This document shows positions 6,325-15,739 of a stretch of 32,811 bases of DNA, in pieces. The stretch's first letter is position 1; each line of letters opens with the position of its first letter. A model generated the notes under the pieces. It did no database searches and was not told the origin of the DNA. It was given only the letters and a program-made list of their open reading frames with translations. The translations under genes and the position numbers were made by a program. Source of the stretch: Planctomycetota bacterium (GTDB lineage Bacteria; Planctomycetota; Planctomycetia; Planctomycetales; Planctomycetaceae); contig JAURQH010000024.1 of the NCBI GenBank assembly GCA_030836185.1, forward strand, positions 1 to 32,811. Reading direction: 5' to 3'.

Positions 6325-6520
6325 TCACTTCTTTCGTGTTGGTGACTTCGTCGTTTTTTTGGTGGTTTTCTTGGGTTTCTTTTTTGCGGCAGGTTTCTTG
6401 GCGGCTTTTTTAGGAGTGCTTTTCGTTGCTGCCTTCTTTTTCGTCGCTTTCTTCTTAGCAGCCTTGGGTTTTGTGGTCTTTTTGGCGGGGACTTTTTTCT
6501 TCTTTTTCCGTTTACCGGAT
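6325..6520. repeat. Low-complexity Lys/Ala/Pro coding repeat
   Basis: The 3' end of the endonuclease-III-like gene is a degenerate repeat of lysine, alanine, proline and threonine codons, seen on the plus strand as runs of C/T-rich triplets such as TTTCTTGGCGGC. It encodes the basic tail. Such tracts change length easily between strains by slippage. Confidence 0.7.
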
Positions 6521-7236
6521 TTCGCCGAAGCGATGATTTCGTCCAGTTTTGAAGCAGCCTGCGTCGGATCAAACTCGTCGTCGGTGTAGTCGAGTTCGTT
6601 CAACACGACCTCACGAATCTTGGGCTCAATCGAGAGACTTTTCAACAGGTTGGCAAACAAGGGAGCATCGGCTTTGCGAACGGCCGCTTTTAGAGATTCG
6701 GCTCCGGCTCCCGCATTTTCCTTCCGCTCCAGCAGTCCTAAGCAAGTCGCCGTGTCACGCATGTAATCGTCTAAGGGGACCAAATGCGAGTCCAACGCAT
6801 TTTGCATCACCCAATTGACGATGAACGGCGTTTTGTGTGGGATTTTGTTAAGTTGTCGTGCGGCAAGATCCTGAGTCTTTTTGCGAACAGCTTCAAATTC
6901 GAAGACGTATTTTTTTTCAAAGATAAATTGCAAAATGGAGCGGACTCGAAGAGCGCGCCAATCGGGGTCGGCCATCCCTTCAAAGGCGGCTTCCAACTCG
7001 GTGATTGAGCTGACGCGAACTTCGTTCCAGTCATGAAAGACTTCAAGTAGCCGATCATAATACTGCTGGGCGCGCTCATAGGACTCATTTTCGAGGCAAG
7101 CAGCAAAGACCAGACTCTCCATCACAGGAAGTTCGATCTTGGGGACCGACCCGTTGTAACGTTTCTTGAGGGCTGTTGTCAGCTTTTTGCAAATCGCTTG
7201 TTTATCAGAGGCTTTAATTGAACTCGCTGTCGCCAT
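6325..7236 (-). CDS. Divergent endonuclease-III-like (HhH-GPD) protein with lysine-rich H1-like tail
   Basis: The 303-residue product starts at the Met at 7236 (AAAGGA six bases upstream). Residues about 15-170 follow the endonuclease III fold order: a segment like the EndoIII ELLVA helix (PVMESLVFAACLENESYERA), then NKIPHKTPFIVNWV, where K135 sits at the position of the catalytic lysine of LPGVGRKTA, then HLVPLDDYMRD, where D156 aligns with the catalytic aspartate of VDTHVFR. The helix-hairpin-helix glycines are poorly kept, and the C-terminal four-cysteine iron-sulfur loop is absent. Residues about 241-303 are almost all Lys, Ala, Pro and Thr in repeats such as KKATKKKAATK, like histone H1/HC1 tails, so nonspecific DNA binding is likely. 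Glycosylase or lyase activity is inference; a purely structural DNA-binding role is possible. It lies 60 bases downstream of rbfA. Confidence 0.65.
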   Translation of the reverse strand: MATASSIKASDKQAICKKLTTALKKRYNGSVPKIELPVMESLVFAACLENESYERAQQYYDRLLEVFHDWNEVRVSSITELEAAFEGMADPDWRALRVRSILQFIFEKKYVFEFEAVRKKTQDLAARQLNKIPHKTPFIVNWVMQNALDSHLVPLDDYMRDTATCLGLLERKENAGAGAESLKAAVRKADAPLFANLLKSLSIEPKIREVVLNELDYTDDEFDPTQAASKLDEIIASAKSGKRKKKKKVPAKKTTKPKAAKKKATKKKAATKSTPKKAAKKPAAKKKPKKTTKKTTKSPTRKK

Positions 7237-7296
7237 CGTGTTCCTTTCGTCTCGGTAATTCATCCAAAGGGATCGAGAATCCAGAGATCATTGATT

Positions 7297-7740
7297 TCAG
7301 TCTGTTGGAGGATCTTCGGAAAGGGCCCGTTCATGATCGAGCAGTGTGCCGCTCTCACGCGGAGTCTCTTCAACATCATTCTCGTCTTCTGACTCGGTGT
7401 CCGGGATGACGCTGCGGAGAAGTTCGGAAGCTCGAATGCTTTTCTTGACCCCTTCGTCAAGTTGAAACTCCAAAATCGGTGTATATCGCAGATTCAGTTC
7501 GTCGGCGATTTTTGATTGTAGAAAACCACGCGCAGATCTGAGGCCGTGCATTGTGAGTGATTGCGTTTTTTCGTCCCCCATCACCGAGACAAAAATCTTG
7601 GCATGCCTCAAATCACCACTGACTTCCACGCCCAAAACGGTCACATTTTTCACGCGGGGATCTTTCAATCCGAACAGGATCTGCATGCTCACGGTTTCCC
7701 GGAGTGCTTGTGCGACCTTGAGTGTCCTGCGTGATGTCAT
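7297..7740 (-). CDS. rbfA: 30S ribosome-binding factor A
   Basis: RbfA is a small KH-fold assembly factor that binds the immature 30S subunit near the 16S 5' helix. The 147-residue product has the family N-terminus (SRRTLKVAQALRETVSMQI), the block DPRVKNVTVLGVEVSGDLRHAKIFVSV, and the C-terminal LRYTPILEFQLDEGVKKSI. The final 25 or so residues form an acidic tail beyond the usual core. It is 72 bases downstream of infB, the classical nusA-infB-rbfA order. ATG start at 7740. truB and rpsO, often next in other bacteria, are not here; the EndoIII-like gene follows instead. Confidence 0.95.
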   Translation of the reverse strand: MTSRRTLKVAQALRETVSMQILFGLKDPRVKNVTVLGVEVSGDLRHAKIFVSVMGDEKTQSLTMHGLRSARGFLQSKIADELNLRYTPILEFQLDEGVKKSIRASELLRSVIPDTESEDENDVEETPRESGTLLDHERALSEDPPTD

Positions 7741-7812: not shown

Positions 7813-10521
7813 TTATTCGTCGGAGTCGTCGGCCGTCTTCACGGGGACATCATCCAGACTTCGTTTTTTCTCTTCAATGCGGAAGGCTTCGAGAAGATCA
7901 CCCTCTTTAATGTCGTTAAATCCATCAAGGCGAATACCGCATTCCATCCCTTCCCGCACCTCTTTGACGTCATCTTTTTCTCGCCGCAATGAGGCAATCG
8001 GATAATCGTTAATGATCGTTTGGTCCCGAATGACATGGACGTGGCAATCGCGTCCAATATTACCATTGAGTACCCGGCAACCCGCGATTGTTCCCGAGCG
8101 ACTCACACTGAATGTTCTGAGAACGAGTGCTCGTCCTGCAGCAATTTCGACACGTTCGGGAGACAGCATTCCTTCCAAAGCATCTCGAATATCCTGAATC
8201 AACTCGTAGATAATTTTGTATCGGCGTATTTCGACGCCTTCCTGGTCCGCAAGAGCGGCTGCCCGATCTTCGGCAATCACGTGGAACGCCATGATGATCG
8301 CAGAACCGGCTGAGGCGAGATAAATATCACTTTCGTTCACACCACCCACGCCTTCGTGAATAATGTTCACGCGGACTTCAGGATGATCGAACTTCAGTAG
8401 CTCGCTACGAATTGCTTCGAGCGAACCGGGAGTATCGGCTTTGACAATCAAGGACAAGTCTTGAACTTTGCCTTCACGAATGGCACCAAGAATGTCTTCC
8501 AAACCGGCTGGCACTTTGATGCGAGACAGAATCTTGGTGCGATCAAGATGTTGACGTTCATCGGCAATTTCGCGGGCACGTTCAATATCTTCCATGACGA
8601 AGAATTTGTCGCCCGCACCGGGAACCGAATCGAATCCAGAGACCTTAACCGGTAAAGAAGGAGGCGCTTCTTTGATTTCTTCGCCACGGTCATTGTAAAT
8701 TGCACGAATACGACCGAAGGCACCACCACAAAGAACATCATCACCAATTTTAAGTGTACCGTCTTTGACAACGAGCCAGGCAATCGGGCCACGTCCTTCG
8801 TCACGGAAGGCTTCCAGACACACGCCCACTGAGGGACGATCATAGTTGCCTTTGTATTCTTGCAGTTCGGCCGTCAGCAAAATCGTTTCCAGCAGGTCGT
8901 CGAGACCGTCACCGGTTTCTCCCGATGTGCGGACGACTTCGATATCGCCACCCCACTCGGAAGGGATGATTTCATGTTGTGCGAGTTCCTGAAGAACTTT
9001 CTGTTCGTTGACGTCCGGTAAATCCATTTTATTCATCGCGACTATGATCGGCACACCCGCGCTTCTGGCGTGGCTGATACATTCGACCGTTTGAGGCATG
9101 ACACCATCGTCGGCAGCCACCACGAGAACAATAATGTCCGTGACGTTGGCTCCACGAGCACGCATTTCTCCAAACGCAGCGTGACCCGGTGTGTCGACAA
9201 ACGTCACTTTCTTATCGTTGTGCTCGACTTGATACGACGAAATGTGTTGTGTGATGCCGCCTGCCTCACCTGCGGCAACATTGGCAGAGCGGAGTCTGTC
9301 GACCAGTGTGGTTTTCCCATGATCGACGTGCCCCAAGACTGTCACAATCGGAGGACGTTCTTGTAGCTCGTCGTCAGGAAACTCTTGGTTGAAGATCTCT
9401 TCGAGTTCTTCTTCGAAATGGATTTGCTCTTTGATGGTGAGGTCGACGCCATGTTCCATGGCGAGCATTAAGGCGGTCTCTTCATCGACCATTTCGTTGA
9501 TCGTGACCATTTCGCCTTGCTGCATCAAAGTTTTCATCAGATCGCGAGCAGGTCGTCCGAGTGCTTCGGAAAGTCCTCGTAAATTGATCGGCAGTGCGAT
9601 GGTGGCTTCTGTTTTGAGTTGGACCGGTTGTGACTTCCCCCGTCTCCGTGAGCGTCGCATCGGGCGTGATCGCTGACGACCACCTTCTTCTTCCTGTTCC
9701 TCAAGCTTTTTCTTGTTGCGGCGTCGCTCTTCGATCAAGCTGCGGCCACGTCGTCCAGCCTCGTCGTCCTTCCCGCGGTCTTTGCTATGCGTGAGTTTCT
9801 TCTCCGCATTTTTCCGAATCTGTTCACCGAGAGGGCTGGACTGTTGCTCCAGCATTTCTGAATTGAGTCGGATTTCCGGCTTGGGGGCTTCCTTTTCCTC
9901 TTTCTTCTTTTGTTTGGGAAGTTTGAGGTTTGGGGCAGCGGCAATGGCTGGGGCTTGTTTTGGTTTGGGTTTCGGCTTGGGCTTCGGTTCAGATTCGTCG
10001 CGTTCAGCCACCCCGGTTCCGATGGGTTTCATCTCTCGCATGCGGGACATCGCATTTGAACGCGGTGACGAGGAGGAGTCCTCACGCGTCATTGGTTTGA
10101 TGGCCGGTTCCGATTTTGATGAATCTTGGTCATCGCCCTCTGGGGGCTTTTCGGGCTCTGTCTCGGAGCCAGGCTCTTCGGCGGGCAACTCAATGGTCTC
10201 TTCTTCGACTGTTTCTTCGGTTTCTGGTTTGGAAGCGGCTCGTAGCTTGGCGCTACGCGCGGAGAGCTTACGCACTTTCCCCACTTTTTCGGAAGCAGAT
10301 TCGTCACGGACGGGTGCCACTTCAGTTTCTGTATCGGCAGACTCTTCCCCTCCAGCCGTCTGCTGATCTTGATACCAGGAGACGACTTTATCACGCTCTT
10401 CGGGGGTGATGCTGGCCAAGGCGGAACTTTTGACCGGAATGCCTAAATCGTTGCAGTGTTGGATTAACTCCTTGCTGTCAAGACCCAGCTCTTTGGCTAA
10501 CGCAAATACTCTGACTTTCAA
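7813..10521 (-). CDS. infB: Translation initiation factor IF-2
   Basis: IF-2 is the GTPase that brings initiator fMet-tRNA to the 30S subunit and promotes subunit joining. This 902-residue protein has an IF2_N domain (MKVRVFALAKELGLDSKELI), a long charged, low-complexity linker (about 55-320, including a KPKPKPKPK stretch), and the GTPase core with G1 GHVDHGKT (about 395-402), G2 GGITQHI, G3 DTPGHAAF and G4 NKMD. Domains II-IV follow, ending GMECGIRLDGFNDIKEGD. The start is TTG at 10521-10519, supported by GAGGAG ten bases upstream, and the first residues match the family start. It lies 60 bases downstream of nusA and 72 upstream of rbfA. Confidence 0.97.
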   Translation of the reverse strand: MKVRVFALAKELGLDSKELIQHCNDLGIPVKSSALASITPEERDKVVSWYQDQQTAGGEESADTETEVAPVRDESASEKVGKVRKLSARSAKLRAASKPETEETVEEETIELPAEEPGSETEPEKPPEGDDQDSSKSEPAIKPMTREDSSSSPRSNAMSRMREMKPIGTGVAERDESEPKPKPKPKPKQAPAIAAAPNLKLPKQKKKEEKEAPKPEIRLNSEMLEQQSSPLGEQIRKNAEKKLTHSKDRGKDDEAGRRGRSLIEERRRNKKKLEEQEEEGGRQRSRPMRRSRRRGKSQPVQLKTEATIALPINLRGLSEALGRPARDLMKTLMQQGEMVTINEMVDEETALMLAMEHGVDLTIKEQIHFEEELEEIFNQEFPDDELQERPPIVTVLGHVDHGKTTLVDRLRSANVAAGEAGGITQHISSYQVEHNDKKVTFVDTPGHAAFGEMRARGANVTDIIVLVVAADDGVMPQTVECISHARSAGVPIIVAMNKMDLPDVNEQKVLQELAQHEIIPSEWGGDIEVVRTSGETGDGLDDLLETILLTAELQEYKGNYDRPSVGVCLEAFRDEGRGPIAWLVVKDGTLKIGDDVLCGGAFGRIRAIYNDRGEEIKEAPPSLPVKVSGFDSVPGAGDKFFVMEDIERAREIADERQHLDRTKILSRIKVPAGLEDILGAIREGKVQDLSLIVKADTPGSLEAIRSELLKFDHPEVRVNIIHEGVGGVNESDIYLASAGSAIIMAFHVIAEDRAAALADQEGVEIRRYKIIYELIQDIRDALEGMLSPERVEIAAGRALVLRTFSVSRSGTIAGCRVLNGNIGRDCHVHVIRDQTIINDYPIASLRREKDDVKEVREGMECGIRLDGFNDIKEGDLLEAFRIEEKKRSLDDVPVKTADDSDE

Positions 10522-10581: not shown

Positions 10582-12078
10582 TTACTCCTGTGCGGCCTGT
10601 TTCTCTTCGGTCGGCTCCTCATCCGAATCGGATTCGGTCGTTGGGCTCTCCTCCGCCGCAACTTCAACCACAGGTTCTTCAACGTCTTGCTCAATTTCGG
10701 CTGGTTCATCGGATTCGACAGACTCTTCCGTCGTTTCCGTTGCTTCTTCGGCAGACGATTCTGTTTCGGCAGACTCCTCTGTGACTTCTTCTGAAGAAGC
10801 TGTCTCTTCGGTGGGGGCTACCGTCGCTTCTTGTTTCGCCTGATTGCTTCCCGTGTCGGCTTCCATTCGCCCCATCTCGCGAGCCAGTTTCCGTTCAGCG
10901 GCTTCGCGAATTTCTTCTTGTTCGGCTTTCAGAGATTCCTCATCGGCGTAATCGACGATCACAGCACAATCCTCGACGGACAGGCCGCTCAACTCTTCGA
11001 GTTGATCGGGTTCGATCACCGAGAGGTCATCAAAGCTGAAGAACCCTTGCGAGACGAGATTCTCTGCAAGGTCTTCCGTAATGTGCGGGACTTTGCAGAA
11101 TGCCGTCACTGCGCCGTCGAGCATTTCGTCCAATTTCTCCTGAGTCATCACATTGATGTCCCAGCCGACCAGTTTGGAAGCGAGCCGAACATTCTGCCCT
11201 TTTTTGCCAATGGCTAACGAAAGTTGGTCGTCGCGAACAAGGACAATGACTTTACCCAGCATCGGACACAGAATGACGTCTTCGACTTCGGCGGGTTGCA
11301 AGGCATTGGGAACCAGCACTTGCAGAGAATCATTCCAGCGAACGATATCAATTCGTTCCCCCGCCAATTCATCAACAATGTTGCGAATGCGGGCTCCACG
11401 AACACCAACACAAGCACCGACCGCGTCAACTTTTGTGTCAAAACAACTCACAGCAACTTTTGATCGATAGCCGGCTTCTCGAGCGAGAGAACGAATCTCG
11501 ATGATTCGTTCACTGACTTCCGGGATCTCGATTTCAAAGAGCCGACGAACCATATCGGGATGCTTGCGTGACAAAACGACGCGAACACGTGGGCCAACTT
11601 TTCGAACTTCCAGAATGATGGCTCGAACTCGCTCACCCACACGATGAGACTCTCCGGGAATCTGTTCGCTGCGAGGAAGAATCGCTTCCACCTTGCCAAG
11701 ATTGACGGTCGCGGACCCGTGATCGAGTCGCGTGACGGCTCCTGTCATTAATTGTGATTGAAGCTCGGTGTATTCGTCGAATAATTGGTCGCGTTCCGCT
11801 TCGCGGATGCGCTGAATCATCACTTGTTTTGCGGTTTGAGCAGAGACACGTCCAAGTAAATCTCCAAGAACATCGGCGTCAAGAACTTCTCCATCGCAAG
11901 TGACGGTTGCTTCTCCCGTCTCACGATCAATGTCAACATTCACATCCTCTTCTTCACCAAAGTGTTTTCGCGCAGCGGACAAAATGGCCTGTTCGATACC
12001 TTCGAAGACCGTCTCTTTGTTGATGTTCTTGTCGCGATGAAGGACGTCAACAATTCGTAATAGCTCGTTGCCGTTCAT
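10582..12078 (-). CDS. nusA: Transcription termination/antitermination factor NusA
   Basis: NusA binds RNA polymerase and nascent RNA, and modulates pausing, termination and antitermination. The 498-residue product has the N-terminal RNAP-binding domain ([18 protein letters not shown]), an S1 domain ([25 protein letters not shown]), and two KH domains with the motifs [16 protein letters not shown] and [20 protein letters not shown] helix-hairpin-helix-like segment follows, then an acidic Glu/Thr/Ser-rich tail of about 90 residues typical of this phylum. ATG start at 12078. It heads the nusA-infB-rbfA group; rimP, which usually precedes nusA, is absent. The gene is preceded by a strong promoter and a structured leader of about 345 bases. 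Confidence 0.97.
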
Positions 12079-12102
12079 GTCCGCCTCGTCTTGAGTGTTT
12101 CG

Positions 12103-12120
12103 CGGGATTGATCAATCCCG
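12103..12120. promoter_or_regulatory. 18-bp perfect palindrome upstream of nusA
   Basis: The sequence CGGGATTGATCAATCCCG is its own reverse complement. It is centred about 33 bases ahead of the nusA start codon, inside the transcribed leader. It could be a protein-binding operator or, as RNA, a short hairpin close to the ribosome-binding site (GAGGCGG). The symmetry is directly visible; the function is unknown. Confidence 0.5.
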
Positions 12121-12201
12121 ATGTTATCTCGTCTTCTGAACGAATTAATGTCTTCGATTCAGAAGTGTTATATCTCTTCCTCTAAATGTGTTCAGTCCAA
12201 T

Positions 12202-12224
12202 AAAAAAAGCGGGCCCTCGCCCAC
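12202..12224 (-). terminator. Intrinsic terminator-like hairpin inside the nusA leader
   Basis: On the minus strand, GTGGGC-GAGG-GCCCGC (one G-U pair) forms a 6-bp stem with a 4-base loop, followed at once by seven T residues. It ends about 123 bases before the nusA start codon and about 220 bases after the predicted transcription start, so it would end a short leader transcript unless read through. A second, longer hairpin (12232-12255) lies directly upstream of it. Confidence 0.65.
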
Positions 12225-12424
12225 TTCTTAGGAGACCCTCTTCGCAAAGAGTCTCTTCCTGACCACGTGAAATTCACATGAATACAGGTATGCCAGTCAT
12301 TCAGATCCGCTGGGGCTTAAAACATGTTATTGCCTTGTAGGACTGAGTAACAGTCAAGCAAATGCCTGGCTGTTGCTGGATAGATGGACATTCCACATCC
12401 GCGAACAGAATCATTTCTGTCGCT
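12225..12424 (-). promoter_or_regulatory. Structured nusA leader; candidate attenuator or small RNA
   Basis: This region lies between the predicted start (about 12424) and the terminator-like hairpin. It contains a 6-bp hairpin ACAGAA-ATGA-TTCTGT near its 5' end and a 9-10 bp hairpin GAGACTCTT...AAGAGGGTCTC at 12232-12255. No T-box element, tRNA or known riboswitch was recognised, and no convincing small ORF was found. Either a terminated small RNA of roughly 220 nt or a regulated leader would fit. The rest of the 12079-12629 gap, on the plus side of the promoter, shows only several CTCTCT motifs. Confidence 0.45.
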
Positions 12425-12430
12425 GGTGTA

Positions 12431-12459
12431 AATGTATCGGTGCAGCTTGACGATGTCAA
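12431..12459 (-). promoter_or_regulatory. Sigma-70-like promoter for nusA-infB-rbfA
   Basis: On the minus strand a perfect -35 TTGACA (12459-12454) is followed after exactly 17 bases by a -10 TACATT (12436-12431). This predicts a start near 12424 and is one of the two best promoter matches in the window. Its only downstream target is the nusA leader. Confidence 0.65.
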
Positions 12460-12629
12460 GTTGCCCAACTTTTCGCTAGATAAGGAGATCGAATCGTGAG
12501 AGATCTCTCTCCAGGTTCAAAAAATGTCAGAACTGGTCTGGAGGCAATTTTGGGATCTCTCTAATATGCACGATCGTACGGAGGCTTTTGGGGCTCTCTC
12601 TTGATCAATTTTCTTCATGGTGGAAGACA

Positions 12630-14114
12630 ATGCTGAAATCACTCAATCTGGCGACTGCAACACTTTTATTAGTAGGAACAATTGTCCACGCTCAGCCGAA
12701 CCGAACTGTTCCCGGTCTTCCGGCTGCCGCTCCCAATGTGAATCCCGAACACGAGAACAGTAAAAAACAGGCCGAACAAGCTTACCGATCAGCACAGTTT
12801 CTCAAAGTCGAAGAACTGACTTCGAAGGTGATCTCGGAAAATTCCAAAGATCATGTCGCTTTGTATCTGAGAGGCAGTGCTCGGGTGGAATTGGGAATTC
12901 GTACTCGCGATGTTCCCAAAATTCGCCAAGGGATTGCCGATTGCCGTGGTGCGATTTTGCACGACACACAGAGTCAGTCGATGTACTATTTGCCTTATCT
13001 TTACGGAATGTCGAACCTGGCCAAGCTGGAATCTCGACCACAACATGCCGATGTGGCCATTCAGGTCGCGACTTCGACATTGGCGGAGTCAGAAGATCGT
13101 GGTGAGGATCGAGCCAATCTGATCTATCAGCGGGCCTACGCCCAGCAATCCAAAGGGGATTTTGACGCGGCCATTCTCGATTATCAGGCAGCCATCAAAG
13201 AGTTCCCCGCTCATCTCGGAGCTCATGTGGCGTTGGCAGAAGTGTTTGTGAAAGCGGGAAAAACTGAAGAAGCGAAAGCAGCCTTTGCTTCGGCTCTGGA
13301 AACATTCCCCGATAGTCCGTTGATTTTCAACAATCGCGGCATGTTTCTTCAACAACAAAACATGCACGAAGAAGCGGTTCAGGACTTTACTGCTGCACTC
13401 AAAAACGATGCCAACTATTACACGTCCTACACAAACCGTGGATTCTCATTGATGCAGCTTGGTAACCCGACCGCTGCTGTTATTGATTACAACGAATCAC
13501 TTAAGCGAAACCCCAATCAAGCGGAAGTTTATCGCCTGAAAGCCTCAGCGAATTTGGCTCAAGGCAAAGCGGACGAAGCCATCGCCGATTATCAGCAAAT
13601 GGTCAAAATAGATCCTCGGCGAGCAGTTGCCAAGGCAGAACTGGGATTTGCACAGTTCTTTGCAGGCGATTATCGGTCGGCGTTCGATTCTCTGACTGCC
13701 GCTAAACAAGCCGATGCGAATCTGCGATACGTCGATCCTTGGCGCTATCTTGCATTGGCTCGATTGGGACAAGAAGACAAAGCCAAAACCATTTTCAATG
13801 ACAGCCTGCAAAAGATTGCTGTCCAGCGTGACTGGATCGATTCTCTGATCGCCTATCAGGCAGGAACAATTGCAATGCGGGACTTGGCAGCTTCCATGTC
13901 GCAAAATGATGAGAACATGAAAATCTCCCAACAGTGTGAGGCAGACTTCTTTACAGCTCATCGTATGTTGAAAGAGAATGAAGGCGGCAAAGCTCGTGAG
14001 CATTTCCAGAAAGCCATCGATTCCGGCAAGACACATCTGTCGGCATATCGTGGTGCTCGTTACGCTCTGAAGCAGTTTGAAACCGCCAGCAGCGATGATT
14101 CAGCTCCCAACTGA
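12630..14114 (+). CDS. Secreted TPR-repeat protein
   Basis: The frame opens at a TTG (12588), but the Met at 12630 gives a clean signal peptide (MLKSLNLATATLLLVGTIVHAQ) and a 494-residue protein. After a short Pro/Asn linker it is built of tetratricopeptide-like repeats: AILDYQAAIKEFPAHLGAHV, AKAAFASALETFPDSPLIFN, NRGMFLQQQNMHEEAVQDFT, AVIDYNESLKRNPNQAEVYR and AIADYQQMVKIDPRRAVAKA. The last part is less regular (AREHFQKAIDSGKTHLSAYR) and may end in a partial repeat. An exported scaffold or binding protein is likely; the partner is unknown. It is a single-gene unit, divergent from nusA and followed by a very strong terminator. Confidence 0.85.
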   Translation: MLKSLNLATATLLLVGTIVHAQPNRTVPGLPAAAPNVNPEHENSKKQAEQAYRSAQFLKVEELTSKVISENSKDHVALYLRGSARVELGIRTRDVPKIRQGIADCRGAILHDTQSQSMYYLPYLYGMSNLAKLESRPQHADVAIQVATSTLAESEDRGEDRANLIYQRAYAQQSKGDFDAAILDYQAAIKEFPAHLGAHVALAEVFVKAGKTEEAKAAFASALETFPDSPLIFNNRGMFLQQQNMHEEAVQDFTAALKNDANYYTSYTNRGFSLMQLGNPTAAVIDYNESLKRNPNQAEVYRLKASANLAQGKADEAIADYQQMVKIDPRRAVAKAELGFAQFFAGDYRSAFDSLTAAKQADANLRYVDPWRYLALARLGQEDKAKTIFNDSLQKIAVQRDWIDSLIAYQAGTIAMRDLAASMSQNDENMKISQQCEADFFTAHRMLKENEGGKAREHFQKAIDSGKTHLSAYRGARYALKQFETASSDDSAPN

Positions 14115-14361: not shown

Positions 14362-14391
14362 AAAAAAACTCCTCGTAAAGACGAGGAGTTT
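14362..14391 (-). terminator. Intrinsic terminator of the ketoacyl-synthase-like gene
   Basis: On the minus strand an 11-bp stem (AAACTCCTCGT / ACGAGGAGTTT) with a CTTT loop runs into a T tract made by bases 14362-14368. It lies 29 bases past the stop codon of the 14420-15739 gene. The stretch between this hairpin and the preceding plus-strand terminator (14185-14361) holds nothing I can recognise. Confidence 0.9.
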
Positions 14392-14419: not shown

Positions 14420-15739
14420 TCAGGCGCCTTGAATCACCACGGCAGACGATTGCCCGATGCGGGTCGTGTTGACGTTGATGAATGTTTTATTGTCTGTTTT
14501 CAGAAGTTCACCAGCCACGACATTCAGTTTGCAGTCAGCATCGGGGGTTTGATAGTTCAGTGTGTAAGGAACAACACCTTGTTGTAGCCCCAAGAGTGAG
14601 GCGGCGAGTTCTTGAGCACCGCAGCCGGCCCCTGAGTTGCCGGTGAAGCTTTTGATGGCCGTCACTGGAACTTCTGCTCCGTATGCCCCCAAAGCATCAT
14701 GGATACCTTTTGCTTCTGCAAGGTCTTCCACAATACTTCCACGACCGTTGGCGTTGATGTGGCCAATTTCTTCGGGACTCAGGCTCGCTTTCGCAAGGGC
14801 GGTTTTGATGGCATTGCTGGTCGCCAGTTCGATATTGCCGGTACGAGGGCTGGTTTTGTAAACGGCACAACTGGCTCCGGTCCCCAGAATACGACCGTAG
14901 ATCGTCGCTCCGCGGGCTTTGGCGTGTTCTTCCTCTTCGAGTACCAGTGTGCAAGCGCCTTCTGCGGGGACGATTCCTGTACGACTGGCATCGAACGGTC
15001 GCGAACGACTGGCAGGTTCGCCTTCATTGGCGGCTAACGTATCATGCAATGCGGAGTGCATTGATCGCACAGGATGCACGAACGTGCCCGTTGAACCAGT
15101 CAACATGACATCAGCACTTCCACGCAGAATAATGCGGCAGGCTTCCGACATCGCCAGGTTCGCAGAAGCTTCGTCTTCTGTCAGCGAATTACTGGGGCCG
15201 CGAGCATCGAGAAAGATCGCGATATGGCAGGCAGGCATATTTGGTAAGTATCGTAACAGCCACAAGGGGTCCATCTTGCTGATGCCGTCTGTTCCCCATT
15301 GGTCGTAATGGAATCCGTTTTCATCGGTGCAGTTGAAGCAGCCGTCTTGCAGATCATCGGGAGGAGAGCACATCAATCCTGCCCCGAAGTCGATTCCGAT
15401 GCGTTGAGAATTGGTTTCTTCCAGAATGAGCCCGGAATGCTCGGCAGCCATCAACGCGGAAGCCGCACCGAGTTGGATTTCCCGGCACATTACCTTCAGG
15501 CTTTTGCGCTGTTCTTTTTCGGTGAAGAACTGCTTTTTGATGGTGCTTTTGTTGAAGCCAGAAACCTCACCCCCAATGTCACCCGGACAAGCGGATCCAT
15601 TCAAGAGCTCCAGCGGTTTAACTCCGCTGACGCCTGTCGAGAGATTGTTCCAGAATTCCTCACAACCAATACCGGCCGAACTGAGGATCCCCATCCCCGT
15701 GATCACGACCCGGCGGTCGGATTCTGCAAATGCATTCAT
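14420..15739 (-). CDS. Beta-ketoacyl-synthase-fold protein lacking the catalytic triad
   Basis: The 439-residue product is clearly a thiolase-fold ketoacyl synthase: RRVVITGMGILSSAGIG at the N-terminus, GSADVMLTGST, RPFDASRTGIVPAEGACTLVLEE and a C-terminal half in the FabF order. Every key position differs from the intact FabF in this window (25128-26372). The nucleophile Cys (TACAS) is E190 in TEDEASAN, the first His (NAHGTS) is N331 in NANGRGS, the second His (TGH) is N368 in KSFTGNSG, and the FGFGG gate is RIGQSS. The lysine of KSxTG (K363) is kept. Condensation is therefore not expected; a chain-length-factor-like partner, a decarboxylase, or a binding or structural role is possible. It stands alone with its own terminator and has no clear ribosome-binding site. 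Confidence 0.85.
   Translation of the reverse strand: MNAFAESDRRVVITGMGILSSAGIGCEEFWNNLSTGVSGVKPLELLNGSACPGDIGGEVSGFNKSTIKKQFFTEKEQRKSLKVMCREIQLGAASALMAAEHSGLILEETNSQRIGIDFGAGLMCSPPDDLQDGCFNCTDENGFHYDQWGTDGISKMDPLWLLRYLPNMPACHIAIFLDARGPSNSLTEDEASANLAMSEACRIILRGSADVMLTGSTGTFVHPVRSMHSALHDTLAANEGEPASRSRPFDASRTGIVPAEGACTLVLEEEEHAKARGATIYGRILGTGASCAVYKTSPRTGNIELATSNAIKTALAKASLSPEEIGHINANGRGSIVEDLAEAKGIHDALGAYGAEVPVTAIKSFTGNSGAGCGAQELAASLLGLQQGVVPYTLNYQTPDADCKLNVVAGELLKTDNKTFINVNTTRIGQSSAVVIQGA

Follow-up and report, generated by a model that had tools for sequence, protein, structure and literature searches.

The closest described relative of the element treated here is the rimP-leader, an intrinsic terminator with a GGGc..gCCC stem and a U-run, found in the leaders of rimP-nusA-infB operons (Naville and Gautheret 2010, PMC2965389). 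According to the accessible text of that study, its signature occurs in no other terminator and lies 4-130 nt from the gene, NusA is the best candidate effector, and no larger conserved element goes with it in general, although some Gammaproteobacteria have a tandem terminator and a possible antiterminator. When we read the sequence before rimP in E. coli K-12 we found TGGGCTTTAGGCCC followed by T7, i.e. the same GGGc..gCCC signature. The gene for the initiator tRNA, metY, also lies in the rimP leader of E. coli, which we mention as a curious parallel only. In B. subtilis, as set out in the available part of a review (PMC12288461), NusA-stimulated termination in the nusA leader autoregulates nusA, and no start-stop mini-ORF is mentioned there. 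A second kind of relative is the uORF attenuator, such as ilvB1 of M. tuberculosis (PMC13236596, accessible portion), in which a short ORF lies between a promoter and an intrinsic terminator.

The window, by which we mean the whole 32,811-nt stretch of planctomycete DNA analysed, contains a nusA-infB-rbfA cluster preceded by a terminator of this kind (Table 1). A first-pass annotation had described here two consecutive hairpins, the second ending in seven Ts, 123 nt before nusA, and folding bears this out. The terminator hairpin spans 12229-12204, with the core stem GTGGGC-GAGG-GCCCGC at 12224-12209 and T7 at 12208-12202, and 123 nt separate the last T (12202) from the nusA ATG (12078). Both hairpins form the minimum free energy structure of 12260-12200 (-30.1 kcal/mol, z -4.2; 0 of 200 shuffles equal it), and the fold of the 230-nt leader has a z of -4.75, again with none of 200 shuffles equally good. 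After rbfA the cluster continues with a 312-codon ORF (6325-7263, minus strand) without a Pfam match.

Table 1. Positions of the features of the nusA leader and its neighbours in the window.
Feature	Position	Strand	Basis or remark
rbfA	7297..7740	-	Pfam RBFA
infB (IF2)	7813..10521	-	Pfam IF-2, GTP_EFTU
nusA, first operon gene	10582..12078	-	Pfam NusA_N, S1, KH
Intrinsic terminator of rimP-leader type, core AAGTGGGC-GAGG-GCCCGCTT, T7	12202..12229	-	Folding, family-wide motif
Hairpin GAGACTCTTT-GCGA-AGAGGGTCTC	12232..12255	-	Folding; immediately 5' of the terminator; kept in the genus
Stem-loop (predicted; GGC..GCC plus outer stem), mini-ORF in the apical loop	12296..12351	-	Folding
Mini-ORF ATG TTT TAA (M F stop)	12317..12325	-	The window's form of the family start-stop mini-ORF
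Shine-Dalgarno-like AAGG	12333..12336	-	7 nt before the mini-ORF ATG
Sigma-70-type promoter TTGACA-17-TACATT	12431..12459	-	Transcription start inferred near 12424
Divergent TPR-protein gene	12618..14114	+	Start codon uncertain, ORF opens at 12588

The window terminator resembles the rimP-leader in its GGGc..gCCC stem, in the T7 directly after the stem, in its distance from the first gene of the operon, and in being restricted to that operon: the pattern GTGGGN{2,12}CCCRCTTTTT has a single match in its own 5.16 Mb genome, before nusA, and the control pattern none. It differs in that rimP is absent and nusA is the first gene, in its stem (GTGGG..CCC(A/G)C), and in having a Shine-Dalgarno (SD) sequence with a start-stop mini-ORF at a narrow distance upstream. 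Since it fits the published rimP-leader, it is not a new candidate in kind. The Rfam rimP leader family (RF01770) is alike in operon position and general idea, and its profile has no match in the window or in 40 relatives; of the 14 control genomes, E. coli alone gives a match. No Rfam family reaches its gathering score in the window, lax filters over 12040-12620 gave one chance match that is not RF01770, and a search for similarity to plasmid DNA gave none.

A terminator at this place could instead close an upstream gene, and many relatives do have a long upstream ORF on the same strand, usually several hundred nt off (these are mechanically called ORFs). In the window gene order refutes this: the upstream TPR gene is divergent, so that the terminator does not serve it, and a promoter lies in between; with the signature occurring once in the genome, before nusA, this explanation is extremely unlikely. 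A strong terminator of 11 pairs with a T-run (14366-14391, minus strand) follows the ketoacyl synthase gene at 14420-15739 and faces the end of the TPR gene.

RimP is a ribosome maturation factor. The first-pass annotation had remarked that its gene, usual at this position, is missing before nusA; we found no RimP_N match in the whole source genome, and across the phylum only 12 of 294 genomes have one, against 10 of 14 control genomes. Lack of rimP characterises the phylum and is nothing peculiar to this locus, and in consequence the attenuator element here stands directly ahead of nusA.

NusA was found in 163 of 170 Planctomycetaceae genomes. We collected 145 leaders, a redundant set with 103 assigned to the family by their handles, 7 from different families within the class and 35 from named MAG contigs. 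The motif G[TC]GGG..[CT]CC[AG]C with a T-run lies at most 900 nt before nusA in 128 of the 145, and by genus in 51 of the 55 Planctomycetaceae genera examined; the pattern was preset as a regular expression, so these counts carry no measure of covariation. By eye, the stem variants GCGGG..CCCGC and GTAGGG..CCCTGC (the latter in L126 and L127) are compensatory. Conservation of the two hairpins, one of the conditions that the first-pass annotation had set for its reading, holds for the terminator; the sequence of the first hairpin is conserved in the genus, and many other leaders (not counted) fold a different hairpin there. Elsewhere in the class the strict terminator pattern is patchy (5 of 47 leaders: L026, L027, L188, L191 and L196), and the attenuator sequence seems to have changed between planctomycete families. 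The f10 family of the same class has nusA leaders with a different conserved terminator, GCCGGC..GCCGG(C/T) with a T-run, in 4 of 6 cases (L174, L175, L176 and L186, about -100 to -150 from nusA). Two f5 leaders, L194 and L201, share TTGCCCGGGCC..GGTTCGGGCAG with T7.

The most novel part of the leader is one that the first-pass annotation missed, the mini-ORF at 12325-12317, some 115 nt 5' of the terminator. Many genera have here the bare form (ATGTAA, ATGTAG or ATGTGA), usually with an SD ahead. The window's copy is not a bare start-stop: it has one sense codon and a moderate SD, and this ATG TTT TAA form is that of its genus, while one clade has ATGGGCAAGATGTAG and another ATGCACAGTATGTGA. 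The predicted stem-loop around it is nearly invariant in sequence within the genus, hence offers too little variation for a covariation test. Clade-specific stems around the mini-ORF occur, and in a search for a universal hairpin no pairing register stood out clearly over the 67 bare forms (the best pair of columns has z 5.4, the rest are scattered).

Comparison of the leaders demonstrates, at the level of sequence, that the start and the stop of the mini-ORF are under selection across the family. We counted in 97 non-redundant leaders, after exclusion of the 17 of 145 without the strict terminator pattern; two of the 97, L026 (no start-stop) and L027 (start-stop), come from a different family within the class. 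A mini-ORF was defined as 0-4 codons after ATG, and the search interval, -150..-85 from the terminator, was set after viewing all 97 leaders. A bare ATG-stop occurs in this interval in 67 of 97 leaders, against 3.4 in dinucleotide shuffles (maximum 7 over 100 rounds and 10 over another 60). For ORFs of 0-4 codons in the same interval the count is 92 leaders, against 15.4 (maximum 24). Other trinucleotides before a stop are far rarer, the next being ACC with 16 leaders; the alternative starts GTG, TTG and CTG precede a stop in 2, 1 and 5 leaders. The motif was first noticed in L001-L065, and 45 leaders dissimilar to that set served as a hold-out that is clean for the motif, not for the interval, so we give an untuned count over 300 nt besides. 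SD plus mini-ORF was found in 38 of the 45 hold-out leaders (shuffle mean 1.1, maximum 4; reverse strand 0), and a bare ATG-stop anywhere in the 300 nt likewise in 38 (shuffle mean 7.5, maximum 14; reverse strand 2).

Judged by sequence, start, reading frame and stop all behave as parts of an ORF. The codon after ATG is TAG in 28 leaders, TGA in 25 and TAA in 14, and TGG in 1. In the 30 leaders without a bare ATG-stop, stops stand at in-frame gaps of 3, 6, 9, 12 and 15 in 11, 7, 15, 7 and 0 cases, and out-of-frame gaps up to 14 have stops in 1 to 5. A core SD (GGAG, GAGG, AGGA or AAGG) lies at most 16 nt before the ATG in 81 of 92 mini-ORFs, against 21 of 263 other ATGs, and a purine is at -12 in 65 of 67 bare forms. 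On a NusA tree of 43 proteins the type of stop changed at least 17 times yet stayed a stop, and ORF length changed 6 times; this is a quick tree, with support of at least 95 on 15 of 40 inner branches and uncertain labels for L007 and L011. An ATG-stop that is no ORF at all, being a conserved protein-binding motif in RNA or DNA, would account for its fixed place in the leader and for the AUG lying inside a predicted hairpin in several clades. We consider this very improbable, given that TAA, TAG and TGA interchange while TGG is nearly absent, that the extensions by 1-4 codons are in frame, that the SD stands at the canonical distance, and that the motif is strand specific.

By genus, a strict count over the 51 with a terminator gives a mini-ORF at -150..-85 in 47, with a core SD in 42 and in bare form in 35; a generous count over a wider stretch gives 54, 47 and 38 of 55. 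Nine of the 51 lack a core-SD mini-ORF at -150..-85. Three of these have an SD start-stop or a start-stop further out, at 164-197 nt (L022, L118 and L121), and others a bare start-stop without core SD; in L088 none is recognisable. L126 and L127 (genus g62) have GGAGG and a 9-codon ORF (MAGVGVQRW and MAGVGVHRW, translated by eye) instead of a start-stop. Among 47 leaders of the class from outside this family we found no core-SD mini-ORF (at most 4 codons, within 600 nt), and a bare ATG-stop without core SD in 4 (L027, L184, L194 and L199). The mini-ORF is therefore not part of the general rimP-leader; in the leaders compared, the SD start-stop belongs to this family, by the names of near records the Planctomycetaceae.

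Spacing relates the mini-ORF to the terminator. A search over 900 nt before nusA, free of any preset interval, found 48 sites with SD and bare ATG-stop in 92 family leaders, 45 of which have none of this strict form. The distance to the terminator is 85-150 nt for 43 of the 48 (median of all 48, 114), and the best 66-nt stretch counted from nusA takes in 21; the distance from terminator to nusA ranges over 46-427 nt (n=82). An earlier comparison of spacings (CV 0.145 vs 0.65, n=82) was biased, because mini-ORFs had been sought 60-230 nt from the terminator. By its position, then, the mini-ORF goes with the terminator and not with the start of nusA; this argues against both reinitiation and translational coupling.

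The narrow spacing also bears on a rival account, in which NusA alone feeds back through the terminator, as in B. subtilis, and the mini-ORF has a role unrelated to it, e.g. a ribosome shielding the long leader from Rho or RNases. The mechanism is known for this operon (available text of PMC12288461; proposed in the accessible part of PMC2965389), and folding predicts a terminator stem that does not depend on the mini-ORF (below). General protection would need no fixed distance, whereas the SD start-stops hold a narrow one to the terminator and much less so to nusA. Three outgroup leaders (L188, L191 and L196) have the same terminator and no core-SD mini-ORF, although this shows only that the terminator needs none. 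Feedback by NusA alone is an unlikely explanation, to be kept in view all the same.

Copies away from nusA were sought by the terminator pattern in the source genome and by a combined pattern, ATGTRR-N85..115-terminator, in 61 family genomes; the leaders themselves had been fetched via nusA. The combined pattern occurs at 19 places in 18 of the 61 genomes, and the reversed control pattern at 3. Thirteen of the places fall in nusA leaders and have a genuine stop; one more (G096) is a nusA leader with ATGTGG; four are away from nusA, two with ATGTGG and two with an ATG-stop, and one (G103:C171) has no assigned position. The idea of a regulon was dropped, with 14 of the 19 places in nusA leaders and 4 elsewhere. 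The two ATG-stop places away from nusA (G108:C42:49638-49776 and G181:C111:7812-7950, each 85-115 nt before GGG..CCCRC-T5) resemble each other and are possibly coding.

The near-consensus promoter that had been proposed ahead of the hairpins is present: TTGACA at 12459-12454 and TACATT at 12436-12431 on the minus strand, with a 17 nt spacer and 10 of 12 consensus matches. Such sites number 12 in 12 kb, against 7.4 expected (sd 2.6), so that alone it is unremarkable; both hexamers are unchanged in 3 species of the genus, over a divergent spacer sequence. A sigma-70-type site (at least 9 matches, spacer 16-18) lies 5' of the mini-ORF in 49 of 64 Planctomycetaceae leaders, against 3.35 in shuffles, and it is on this account most likely that one transcript carries promoter, mini-ORF and terminator. 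The DNA itself gives these three parts and the SD, with their order and spacing. The commonest -10 hexamer among these promoter-like sites is TATCGT, with CG in the middle (19 of 49).

With its own promoter and a strong terminator, the terminated leader of about 220 nt might also be a trans-acting small RNA, the other interpretation that the first-pass annotation had put forward. Nothing in the comparison lends it support: beyond the genus, the window leader has no similarity save the terminator and short weak matches, and other clades keep conserved blocks of their own, including around the mini-ORF. We regard a small RNA as very unlikely. The proposal of premature termination with NusA feedback fared better. 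It is partly supported and, by analogy with the described systems, the best-founded part of that earlier interpretation, in that the element fits the rimP-leader, although it is not new in kind.

A short ORF followed by an intrinsic terminator is the classical layout of leader-peptide attenuation, in which either the codons respond to an amino acid or the ribosome is arrested by its nascent peptide, with a switch between antiterminator and terminator. The commonest form here, in 67 of 97 leaders, has no sense codon after the ATG, and the codons of the longer forms differ between clades. Stops read by RF1 only, by RF2 only and by both all occur. With 0-4 varied sense codons and a varying type of stop, the mini-ORF is an unlikely sensor of amino acids, of its nascent peptide or of any single release factor. 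We predict no antiterminator: whether or not a ribosome is placed on the mini-ORF, the terminator stem has a median probability of 0.997 (n=57, compared as equilibrium folds), and the means for the two states are 0.85 and 0.83, 7 of the 57 leaders being below 0.5 already without the ribosome. Placing the ribosome shifts the stem probability by more than 0.2 in 4 of 57 leaders, three down and one up, so there is no general alternative fold. With the stem nearly unchanged, a trp-like switch is not predicted, and attenuation by a leader peptide seems highly improbable. The family leaders differ from uORF attenuators of the ilvB1 type on the same points, having almost no sense codons, no predicted antiterminator and about 115 nt between mini-ORF and terminator.

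What the mini-ORF always keeps, at a constant spacing to the terminator, is a requirement for initiation (30S subunit, initiator tRNA, initiation factors and subunit joining) followed by termination in place. Because the operon it precedes encodes IF2, we propose a two-input attenuator of nusA-infB-rbfA, combining a NusA-type terminator with a start-stop mini-ORF that reports translation initiation; on the arrangement of the leaders we give this an even chance of being right. The first input would be the terminator of rimP-leader type, at which NusA, by analogy with B. subtilis, probably promotes termination of its own operon. For the second, a ribosome would initiate on the mini-ORF and stop almost at once, without moving away. 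Both this translation and its effect on termination are what we infer from the leaders: occupancy of the mini-ORF would tune read-through into nusA-infB, and expression of IF2 and NusA would follow the cell's capacity to start translation. As to the sign of the effect, we lean to initiation favouring termination, which would amount to negative feedback on IF2. A ribosome on the mini-ORF might act on the terminator through contact with RNA polymerase, by protecting the spacer from Rho, or by altering folding in time. The stronger form of the two-input proposal, that the mini-ORF is a dedicated initiation sensor, in which a 70S ribosome initiating and terminating in place, a constant distance behind RNA polymerase, sets termination at a NusA-responsive attenuator, is more tentative, a possibility that we would put below an even chance.

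Related subjects have been treated before, in the parts of these papers available: AUGUGA as ambiguous start sites at genes (PMC9841429) and leader genes close to the main start (PMC4833913). Among the literature matches listed, none reports a start-stop ORF in the leader of nusA or rimP; as evidence of absence this is weak, since the subscription literature lay mostly outside the scope of the search. The terminator is thus a further case of a known attenuator, while a start-stop mini-ORF tied to it was, within that scope, not found described.

A lineage with the terminator and without rimP shows that this element can serve nusA-infB alone. The mini-ORF adds a part readable by initiation alone, in front of an initiation-factor gene, and makes a coupling of initiation to transcription in this operon directly testable by one point mutation. 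If the sensor proposal is true, the quantity read by this leader ORF would be initiation itself instead of an amino acid, a peptide or a drug. An ORF with nothing to encode, easily dismissed, shows clear selection across a bacterial family.
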